Source: Utricularia gibba
Lineage: Eukaryota > Streptophyta > Magnoliopsida > Lamiales > Lentibulariaceae
Assembly: GCA_002189035.1 (NCBI GenBank)
Contig: CM007992.1
Location: 3,596,001 to 3,660,000 of the forward strand
Length of the DNA: 64,000 nt
Direction: 5' to 3'
The notes under the pieces are model-generated. The model saw only the letters and a program-made list of their open reading frames with translations, ran no database searches and was not told the origin of the DNA. The position numbers were made by a program, and so were the translations under genes. Of this stretch, positions 6,863 through 11,580 are shown piece after piece (the stretch's first letter is position 1; every line of letters begins with the position of its first letter).

Positions 6863-7360
6863 TCATTCTGTTTTCATGATCGCAGCAGATTGAGATTCTT
6901 TAAGGGGTTGGAACCGAAGCCACTCGCTAACTGAACTCTGAATCAAGAGTTGTTCGAGTAATTCAGGACCCAAATCTTCCAGAACGATCAAGTCCTCTTC
7001 TTTCACTCGATTCCTGGGTTCAGATCTCTTGGTTCTTCTAACCTGCCTGTGGTGCTCTTTGAGAACTCTAGCAGGCGACACCCCATGTGCACACCTGTAA
7101 TTCAACTTGGCAAGTGATTGCTCAACAACACTGACTGGAAAATTCAGCTGCACCGAAGACCCTCTCAGGCTCAGTGCAGCTTGGTCATAAGCTAAGGCAG
7201 CTTCCTCCGGTGTATCGAATGTCCCCAGCCACACCCGTCTCCCACTCCGACTCGAATCCCGAATCTCGGCGGCGTGTTTTCCCCACGGCCGCGTTCTTAC
7301 ACCCACGAACTTCCTTCTCTCCGACGGATAGGCTTCCGGGCTCTGTTTCTCGACCGCCAT
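6863..7360 (-). CDS. AP2/ERF transcription factor, ERF1-like (group IX)
   Basis: Single-exon protein of 165 residues. A complete AP2/ERF DNA-binding domain spans about residues 16-75 ([40 protein letters not shown]). The Ala and Asp of AAEIRD mark it as ERF rather than DREB. Near the C-terminus, [12 protein letters not shown] (about residues 127-138) resembles the conserved acidic motif of ERF1/ERF15/ORA59-type group IX proteins, which activate GCC-box genes downstream of ethylene and jasmonate. The domain begins KFVGVR rather than the common HYRGVR, so the first base-contacting Arg position is Val; aliphatic residues there also occur in some ERF1 relatives. The start is the first ATG of the frame. 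The upstream region contains a long inverted repeat (7499-7753) and a MITE (7900-8166). The exact orthologue cannot be fixed from sequence alone. Confidence 0.93.
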
Positions 7361-7498
7361 TCTTGAAAACCCTTGCTTACCTGTGGCTGAGATCCCCTAT
7401 TTATGCATCAATCATCATGCTTCGAAATAGTTGCAATAATGAGTTGCGTTTGCAGACAGTTGGGAACTTTAAATTATGTTCGATCAACCGCAGAGAGA

Positions 7499-7753
7499 GG
7501 TCAGTTAGAAAAGTGGCCACTGTCACTTTCTCTCTCACACAGTAAGGCAAAAATTTTACACATAGGTGGCCACTTTTATCACACAGTGAGATGACAGTGG
7601 CCACTTTTTTAAATCACCCGGCTCGATTTAAAAAAGTGGCCACTGTCATCTAACTGTGTGATAAAAGTGGCCACTCTATGTGTAAAATTTTTGACTTACT
7701 GTGTGAGAGATGTGTGAGAGAGAAAGTGACAGTGGCCACTTTTCTAACTGACC
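7499..7753. repeat. large near-perfect inverted repeat (hairpin element)
   Basis: The left arm (7499-7615) starts GGTCAGTTAGAAAAGTGGCC. The right arm (7625-7753) is its near-perfect reverse complement, with a loop of about 9 bases. The arms differ by a few substitutions and by an extra ~11 bp 'GAGATGTGTGA'-type duplication in the right arm. The palindrome AGTGGCCACT, or a one-base variant, occurs about three times per arm. No clear target-site duplication was found. It sits 139-393 bp upstream of the ERF start codon. It may be a foldback MITE; a transcript across it would form a long hairpin. Confidence 0.9.
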
Positions 7754-7899
7754 ACCCGAGCAAACCCCTCAAGTGTACTTTTTTTGAGGAACAGTTGTTG
7801 GTAAGTTCAAAGCTGTGTGCTGAACTCCGAGGTGGCGAAGGCAACATTGCAGCTAACTGGCCCATGCCTCCTAACACGCGACATTAACTCAACTAGTAA

Positions 7900-8166
7900 T
7901 GGTGTGCTTGGTTTATGTGAATGTGATAAAATGGGTTTAGTTTATTTGGGTTTAAATAAAGTTAATATATTGGGAATATTTTTTTAAGTAATGTTCAGTT
8001 GTTGGGATTAACAATGGGATTAATTGGTTTAAATAAAAGAAAAGATGGATGTTGTTTTAAATAAACCCATGTACATGGAATTAAAAAAAACCCATGTAAT
8101 CCCAAATTTATCCTTATAATTTATAATCCTAATTTTAAAATGTAATCCCATAAACCAAACACACCC
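7900..8166. mobile_element. Tourist-like MITE (267 bp)
   Basis: Terminal inverted repeats TGGTGTGCTTGGTTTATG and GGGTGTGTTTGGTTTATG (read inward from the right end) are flanked by direct TAA duplications at 7897-7899 and 8167-8169. No coding capacity is present. The ends resemble those of the 891 bp element at 1035-1925, in keeping with one superfamily. It lies about 540 bp upstream of the ERF start codon. Confidence 0.82.
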
Positions 8167-8568
8167 TAAGTACTACAAAATAGTGTTAAAAAAACTATGA
8201 TATATTGCAAACTGTAATGATTATCACATTGCTAATAACATATCGTTTTGAACCTTGTTACGACTCGATCATTTGAAAATTTAAAAATATTAAATTTAAA
8301 TAATAATGAATTAAATTAAACTCATGATCAATAGTAATATGTTGTTTGTGTGGGAGAAAGTTAGGAATTATTATTTTCAAAACGAATAATTAATTTCCTA
8401 AGTATTATTTGCCAGGGTGGCTGATTTTGTGAATAACCCCAAGAATTGATGAAAATATCCACTTTCTTAGGTGAATTCTCGGCTGCATACCACCTCAAAT
8501 CGGTCCTTTGTCGTGCCCGACGGCGGCTGGGACCCACTGGGGGTATATTGGTAAATATTACACGCATT

Positions 8569-8589
8569 GGGGGGGGGGGGGGGGGGGGG
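8569..8589. repeat. poly-G run (21 G)
   Basis: An uninterrupted run of 21 G. Runs of this length are prone to sequencing and assembly length error. Confidence 0.9.
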
Positions 8590-11580
8590 ACAAACTGGGC
8601 CGCCCGAATAGTCCCGGCCGTCACCATGGTTATGAATAGAGGCCGGGTTTTTAGGATTAATTAAATGAAATCGGGAATCTAATAAGTATATAAATTAATA
8701 ACCGACATTGAAATGAATTAGATCGGTTTGGTTTTGAGTTAACCGGTTTTGAAAAAATAATTAAATATAAAAATATATAAATTATTCAAATTACTTTGAA
8801 GAATAATCGATTTATGTCAAATTCCACTATTCTAAACCGAACCGAATTTTTCGATTTCGGTTAGATTCAATTTGATTTTCTTCGATTAATCAGTTTGTTC
8901 GGTTATTAACTGAATTGTGTTCACTCCTAGTTGTGGTCGTTCCATCGGTTGCAAGTGAAATATGAATTTGTTATTAAAAATGATATTGATTTATGTTATA
9001 AAAGTATTTTTTTTACTAAACATAAATATTTATGCTTCAAAAATATAATAAATTAAAAATCTATTTTTAGGAAGCAAAATCGATCAATATCTTAAACTTT
9101 GTCAAGAATAAATACCTTATGTTTTTAAAAATATATTTTAAAAATAATTTATTATTATGATTTTACTTCCGAATAAATGGATATTTAAAAGAATTTTCAT
9201 TTTACTGAAAATACTGTTGGAAAAATATTATAAACCCCGACCACAATATGTTAAATCAAAATCCAATCAGAAACCAAGTGGGTACAGCTGTCACGTTCTT
9301 GACGTTTCCGTTTTGAATTAAAAAAGAATTGGTGGGACCGGACCCATTAAACGCCGGCTCCATCAAAATATAAAAATATTTTTTTAATATTTTTTGATAT
9401 CTGCCACGCAACTAATCAATTATGTCGAATAATAATAGGTAATTTAAATTAATTTTTTTTGGTATAATTTTTACTTTATTTAATTCATAAAAGTATTACC
9501 ATCAAAATACTTACTTAATTTTATAACTTACACATGAATAACTTTTTGATTATGAAAAATTTAAAATATCCATAAATATATCTACCTCTTGTTTTCAAAC
9601 ACACTTTTGTGATATGGATATTTGGGAAGATTTATTTGAGACAGTTTTCCAAACAACCACTTCCCTTATGTGGGTGGCTCGATATGGTGTTTGCGATACT
9701 ACAACCAAATTCCAGGCACCCACTTTTACTCATAAGTAACGTTAATATAAAATAATTAAATAAATGAATTTCAATACATAAAATTAGAGAATGATTGAAG
9801 AGTCGAAGCCAAGAACCTTATCCAGATAAAAAAATGTAGAAGGTTAAAAATGAATTTGTTCAAAATCTTTAAAAATTAATCCAATATATATGTACTAAAC
9901 AACTCATGGTATATCTTATTCCAATCCATAAATTCCATACTACCAAACATAATGTGTATTTATAGGAGGTATAATTTTTATATAATATAAATTATACCAG
10001 TATTACTAAAACTATTACCAAACACGGGCTCAACGGATAAAAAAATATTACAAATATTTTTTAATATATATTGATTATATATTATAAATTGTCAATTTTT
10101 AACGGCATCCATCAAATGTCATTGTGGGATGAACTTATATTATATAGAAATCCACCTATTTTGTGTATTGATATTATAGAAATATAACGTGTTCAAATTT
10201 GCAAATTAATCTATTACCCTTTTTTCTACTGATAAAAGAAAAAGATATTTGATTCCAATATACGGAAAATTGTTTATTTTTTTAATTGTTTATATAGCAT
10301 AAGATATCTTAAAATTAAATGAGGAAATGGTATTTCAGTGAGGTGTCAGAGAGGAATTAATTAGTGTAGGTTTATGACATTCTCCACCTTGACCTTTCCC
10401 GTATTTTGTCTTTTGCGGCGGCACCGGGACCCACGGAGGGTTACATACGTAAATCTACTTTTGGAAATATAAAACTACGTCGACATTTTACCGGTGTGAC
10501 GTCTGCCATTTGTATTTTACCCTATTAACACAGTTTCTTTGCAATTTACCTTACTAATAACATTTATTTGCACTTTATATTTTATCAAAAATAAATAAAA
10601 TAACTTTATGATTTTATCAAATAGCGTATTTATTTTCCTTTTTAAAAATTTGCAAAATCTAATTATCAAAATAATAAAATCTGATACCTTATTTTTGTCA
10701 AAAAAATTTTAATATTACATTAATGATAAAAAATAAAATAGATTTCATGAAAAATATGAAACATACGATAATATGGAGTATCAAAAATAAACTATAACAA
10801 ATTTTATTGTTAATATATGTTGTATATCAATAAAAATTATTATATAAGATAAATGAGTATTTTATTTCAAAGATTTTTTTATTTATATTAAAATTAAATT
10901 TATTTAAAATTTCATAAAAATTAAAAAGAATAAATTTCATAAAATATACTTAAGTGAAAATTGAATAAAAAATCATGCATAGTTGAATTTTAGCTTTATC
11001 TTTTATTTAATATAAAATAAAAACTACATGTTATATAAATAAAAATAACAATAAATTTTGAATACATCTAACAACACATAGAACACTGATGTGATACGGA
11101 ACTGAACTGTTTAACAAAGTGAACACAAAAAAGTATGGTTCTAATCATTCGTTGAAGATCGAGCAAGATAATCCTAAATGGGGATAAATCTGAAGGCAGC
11201 GACTTTATTAAGAATATAATAAATACGAAAATCATAGTATTGAGGTAAATTGCAGAGAAGAATTATTTTTTTTTGGTGATTTACAAAGTGTTCAGAAACG
11301 TACGGTAAATCACAGATAAATTAAAAAAGGTGAGGCATTTGCCTCATTTACTCTATCTACGTGGGTTTCCGTACACGCCGTATTTTATTCTCAAAGCTTA
11401 TTCCCGTTTCAAATGGCGTGGGTATTTCCTAAAATATTTCAAATTAAAATTCCGTAAACTATATTTTTTATATTAAATCGTATAATTAAAATTTGAGAAA
11501 ATTATCTTGATTTTACAAATTAATGGGCTTATGTAATTTTAGCCCGTTTACAATCGGACTTTTGAAGTCCAACAATGGGC
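8590..11580. other. AT-rich intergenic DNA
   Basis: About 3 kb of very AT-rich sequence with no gene-like open frame on either strand. A few GGGACC/GGACCC islands (about 9335 and 10425) and homopolymer tracts are present. No paired terminal repeats could be matched. Confidence 0.65.

Follow-up and report, generated by a model that had tools for sequence, protein, structure and literature searches.

In Arabidopsis, about 486 of 634 inverted repeats located near genes, many of them derived from MuDR-type MITEs, give rise to 24-nt siRNAs (reviewed in PMC12595863), and in sunflower a 260-bp MITE lying 600 bp upstream of HaWRKY6 alters chromatin looping (PMC12595863). Repression of ZmNAC111 is exerted by an 82-bp MITE in its promoter, which acts via RdDM (PMC4595727). 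Mu killer of maize, which comprises ~1.3 kb of a transposase gene, silences MuDR in trans (PMC3440606).

Here we describe a 255-bp hairpin found in a 64-kb stretch of DNA (the window). It very probably consists of two copies of a ~123-bp non-autonomous Mutator-like MITE, joined head to head in inverted orientation and lying in an ERF-type promoter. Like the MuDR-family MITE inverted repeats of Arabidopsis and the HaWRKY6 MITE, the dimer is a ~260-bp inverted repeat that precedes a transcription factor gene by a few hundred bp. In those systems, however, measurements exist for siRNAs, methylation and chromatin loops, whereas the dimer is described from its sequence, and each of those hairpins corresponds to one unit and ours to two. 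The ZmNAC111 element is likewise a promoter MITE that forms a hairpin, and its gene also codes for a stress transcription factor, although it is a different element and its effect on expression has been demonstrated, while that of the dimer is putative. Mu killer is a looser analogue, since it also consists of an inverted duplication of Mutator-type sequence; unlike it, the dimer contains no transposase sequence and could match short termini only. As with other plant Mutator-like MITEs, the unit is short (~123 bp), non-coding and multi-copy, with terminal inverted repeats (TIRs), 9-10-bp target-site duplications (TSDs) and MULE termini, but this locus differs from them in being a back-to-back pair that lacks a TSD of its own and some terminal bases. 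As an insertion in a plant promoter the hairpin is of an ordinary kind; its inverted-pair layout is uncommon in the genome and not conceptually new. A literature search with the terminal motif of the unit found no paper on this motif.

The hairpin and the neighbouring ERF gene

The original prediction described an inverted repeat of ~120 bp, with arms of 117 and 129 bp separated by a loop of ~9 bp, and this structure was present as described (Table 1). It was also expected to fold into a long hairpin, and in agreement with this, RNA folding yielded -198.9 kcal/mol, compared with -70.4 +/- 4.9 kcal/mol for shuffled sequences (z = -26.4), none of the shuffles being as stable. Among the inverted repeats of the window the hairpin ranked first. 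The repeated palindromes that had been noticed in the arms were confirmed, with five exact occurrences of AGTGGCCACT and six of the core GTGGCCAC within the 255 bp of the hairpin, compared with one GTGGCCAC in the remainder of the window. The 11-bp internal duplication was likewise found in the right arm and was missing in all other aligned copies of the MITE. Besides this duplication, two substitutions and a 1-bp indel distinguished the left arm from the right.

The nearby gene had been taken for an ERF gene, and its product indeed contains an AP2 domain (PF00847, E = 1.1e-14), the closest proteins in the PDB being ERF096 and AtERF1. The dimer occupies the region from 139 to 393 bp upstream of the AP2/ERF start codon, so that 138 bp separate the ATG from the hairpin. 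Because a TATA-like box is located between the hairpin and the gene, the hairpin is probably promoter DNA that lies outside the ERF transcript. The position of the dimer upstream of this probable TATA box also makes a read-through hairpin RNA from the ERF promoter less likely.

Table 1. Coordinates of the hairpin, its components, the neighbouring gene and related elements. Positions are those of the window unless another sequence is named.
Feature	Position	Strand	Size	Remarks
Hairpin left arm	7499-7615		117 nt	
Hairpin right arm	7625-7753		129 nt	
Loop/junction ACCCGGCTC	7616-7624		9 nt	Left-copy end ACCC (7616-7619) plus 5 bp, GGCTC
Tandem duplication	7700-7721		11 bp	TGTGTGAGAGA at 7700 and 7711, right arm
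Left MITE copy	7499-7619	+		Orientation GGTCAG...AAATCACCC; A at 7498 replaces the outermost G
Right MITE copy, inverted	7625-7753	-		Lacks inner terminal GGGT; has the 11-bp tandem duplication
TIR, left copy, outer end	7499-7525	+	27 bp	Partner 7592-7618
TIR, left copy, inner end	7592-7618	+	27 bp	Partner 7499-7525
ERF-type transcription factor gene	6863-7360	-	165 aa	Single uninterrupted frame, ATG at 7360
TATA-like box ATAAATAGGG (putative)	7393-7404	-		About -44 from the ATG, between hairpin and ERF gene
MULE relative L078	C98:62258-66225		~4 kb	Exact 10-bp TSD TAAAACGGAC; MULE domain, E = 3.7e-16
MULE relative L079	C375		~4 kb	~96% identical to L078; 10-bp TSD GGGGTTTTTC; PF10551 domain
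TSD of MITE copy L003			9-10 bp	TTCTCTAGAT
TSD of MITE copy L004			9-10 bp	AAGCGAAGCC
TSD of MITE copy L005			9-10 bp	CAAATTCATG
TSD of MITE copy L018			9-10 bp	GTTGCTTCGC
TSD of MITE copy L027			9-10 bp	CTTGTTATT
TSD of MITE copy L041			9-10 bp	ATTATTTTTA

The repeated unit and its copies in the genome

Each arm of the hairpin corresponded to one copy of a ~123-bp transposon unit. The search for copies elsewhere that had been proposed with the original prediction, in which the hairpin was the query against a 100-Mb part of the genome, revealed ~28 other places, a lower bound because the genome sequence is possibly incomplete and the search scored the best candidates only. All of them lay outside hairpin pairs of this kind and held single units matching either arm, and 6-7 of these copies were 93-98% identical. 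The unit is non-coding, begins with GGGTCAGTTAGAAAAGTGGCCACTGTCA and finishes with the inverted TGACAGTGGCCACTTTTTTAAATCACCC; its own TIRs, 27 bp long and 89% complementary, contain GTGGCCAC motifs. The left copy was 98% identical to the solo copies L003 and L004 and matched the profile over positions 1-122. Compared with the consensus of young copies, it lacked one G and had a substitution at the terminal G, and the stretch 7592-7619 matched GGGTGATTTAAAAAAGTGGCCACTGTCA perfectly. The right copy matched profile positions 1-118 on the minus strand. Counting the terminal base, the left arm carries 1 substitution from the young-copy consensus and the right arm 4.

Related units were also seen close to each other at other places. 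L018 contains a divergent inverted pair (1335-1434 and 1501-1617) whose members lie 67 bp apart, and in L016 two units (1501-1583 and 1583-1690) abut directly in the same orientation, the second carrying GTACCCAC in place of GTGGCCAC.

Target-site duplications and MULE relatives

A TSD of 8-11 bp was taken as the criterion, as in PMC3903597. Duplications of 8-10 bp with a score of at least 7, which random pairs reach in ~0.2% of cases, were present at 9 of the 28 places tested (examples in Table 1), and the L025 copy had a 9-10-bp TSD with one mismatch. In L012 and L026 the GGTCAG end is gone, yet inspection by eye revealed that direct repeats of 9 bp are still present where the copy is truncated (AAGTTAGTA; ATTGATCCA), which suggests that, as at the dimer junction, the end disappeared while the copy was inserting or later. 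For the dimer and its two units, the scores of -1, -5 and 1 were at chance level, since 39%, 95% and 23% of random pairs score as high. With no TSD recognisable at the dimer or its units, the locus shows no trace of a clean insertion event. The ACCCG that borders the right copy on both sides was considered as the TSD of a nested insertion and rejected, as its score of 1 is the one that 23% of random pairs attain.

MULE relatives were located by a pattern search for the termini and a search for PF10551, the MULE transposase domain, which coincided at two places, L078 and L079. The left ends of both elements correspond to GGGTCTTTTAGAAAAATGGCCACTGT, three TGGCCA repeats are found in each end, and their TIRs share the termini of the MITE; in addition, GGGTGATTTAAAAAAGTGGCCACTGTG inside the right end of L078 matches the MITE terminus. 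Because the termini and the 10-bp duplications are common to the unit and to these elements carrying a MULE domain, we consider the unit to be a non-autonomous Mutator-like MITE. TIRs, TSDs, a MULE relative with the same termini and dispersed non-coding copies, by which such MITEs are recognised, were all found for the unit. The transposase region of both L078 and L079 falls into several ORFs, owing either to introns or to defects, and the two elements are putative autonomous relatives. The AGTGGCCACT palindromes characterise the whole family, being shared by the MITE and the TIRs of the putative autonomous relative, and for this reason they would most simply be transposase-recognition repeats. 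The MULE family would have mobilised the MITE units, its transposase binding the repeated GTGGCCAC-containing ends. We also observed in the right end of L078 (3950-4026) an extra stretch of ~18 bp, TTAAATCACCCCACTTTT, that recreates the MITE terminus and that L079 lacks.

Origin of the inverted pair

A close inverted junction between two units occurred once in 100 Mb, at this locus only, and a pattern search of the genome detected no tail-to-tail dimers. We propose that two copies were joined, either because one inserted at or beside the end of the other or through inverted duplication soon after insertion, and that small amounts of sequence were lost at the junction and at the ends while the pair formed. 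Both two insertions from one burst and an inverted duplication fit the data, and we favour two insertions by giving them slightly more weight. The flanks of the dimer are single-copy in the assembly. An empty site or a second haplotype was looked for in the assembly and none was found, so that the state before insertion cannot be read.

The inverted duplication of one MITE, through a one-ended transposase cut, sister-end fusion or fold-back template switching, is a serious competitor, with a little less than an even chance of being correct. It would account for a junction that is unique in 100 Mb, for the lack of a TSD at either unit and for the way in which the units abut, with 5 non-element bases between them and a few terminal bases lost at the junction, where the right copy is without its inner GGGT. 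The absence of the outermost G at both outer ends of the dimer also speaks for it. In contrast, the divergence of the arms does not set them apart as sisters: they differ from each other at 4 of 118 positions, compared with 3 of 122 between arms and solo copies, and an alignment with the solo copies gave no clear private mutation common to both arms. Furthermore, the inverted homology stops at the ends of the element and does not extend into the flank.

Alternative readings of the hairpin

It is improbable that the locus is a microRNA gene or a dedicated siRNA gene, in which the hairpin itself would be the selected feature. The hairpin is very stable, MITEs are known to give rise to miRNA genes (PMC12595863), and the Rfam MIR821 model aligned along its whole length (E = 4e-23). 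However, the score of 117 bits is far below the gathering score of 249, the other strand scored 114, and such near-equal scores on both strands are expected of any long perfect hairpin; besides, the arms have diverged by the 11-bp duplication. Membership of the known MIR821 family was therefore rejected, the match reflecting generic hairpin similarity.

Still less probable is that the ~255 bp form a single foldback-type transposon and move as one unit. The long arms and tiny loop would suit such an element, and Mutator/Foldback families exist (Tm1, PMC3169594), but only single units were found elsewhere in 100 Mb, with no second dimer, and no TSD was found around this one; these results, together with the unique junction, led us to reject it. 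The "young foldback element" of the original prediction therefore held in so far as the hairpin is young, transposon-derived and located in the ERF promoter, and failed in that it comprises two copies, inverted relative to each other, of a MITE that moves separately. Finally, an assembly artefact in which a single MITE was duplicated in inverted orientation would agree with the unique junction and the single allele in the assembly, but it can practically be dismissed, because the arms differ by the duplication, two substitutions and an indel, which is unexpected if one unit had been copied, and long reads easily span a 255-bp repeat.

Possible effect on the ERF gene

Taking the head-to-head MITE dimer as the preferred reading, its cytosines on both strands comprise 76 in CHH, 22 in CHG and 4 in CG context, so any methylation would be mostly of the CHH type. 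Its likeliest effect would be that the ~255 bp stay CHH-methylated through 24-nt siRNAs, derived from Pol IV/RDR2 transcripts or hairpin transcripts that may arise at the dimer and at its dispersed relatives, with the ERF gene mildly or not repressed. By analogy with the systems described above, the inverted-pair layout might attract silencing small RNAs. We put the chances that the dimer is targeted by siRNAs at about even, and consider it less than evenly likely that such targeting alters ERF expression; otherwise, the dimer would represent inert spacer DNA. The most far-reaching proposal is that a transposase-linked inverted duplication turned one MITE into the dimer, which became a dedicated siRNA source, setting ERF promoter methylation in cis and silencing the dispersed family and the MULE termini in trans, as a miniature Mu killer; we regard it as a long shot.

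If siRNAs are drawn to the dimer, it would add a natural case to the MITE inverted repeats that tune stress-type transcription factor genes, and it would be usable as an insertion-polymorphism marker. Without such a siRNA role, the dimer would be ordinary plant promoter composition. The MITE family, with its TSDs and coding partner, is a ready set for studying how MITE pairs form.

Other features of the window

A second, unrelated MITE-like element of ~270 bp is located beside the dimer (7894-8172). It has the ends TGGTGTGCTTGGTTTATG and CATAAACCAAACACACCC, TAA on both sides and ~40 other matches in the genome, and from the 3-bp TAA duplication it looks PIF/Harbinger (Tourist)-like. Farther away, a GGGCGCGTTTGGTTGCTGGGTT-like inverted repeat (1027-1056 and 1904-1933), 87% complementary and with its two parts ~850 bp apart, may represent further transposon ends. 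A run of ~20 G at about 8570-8590 is a possible slippage or assembly-sensitive site.
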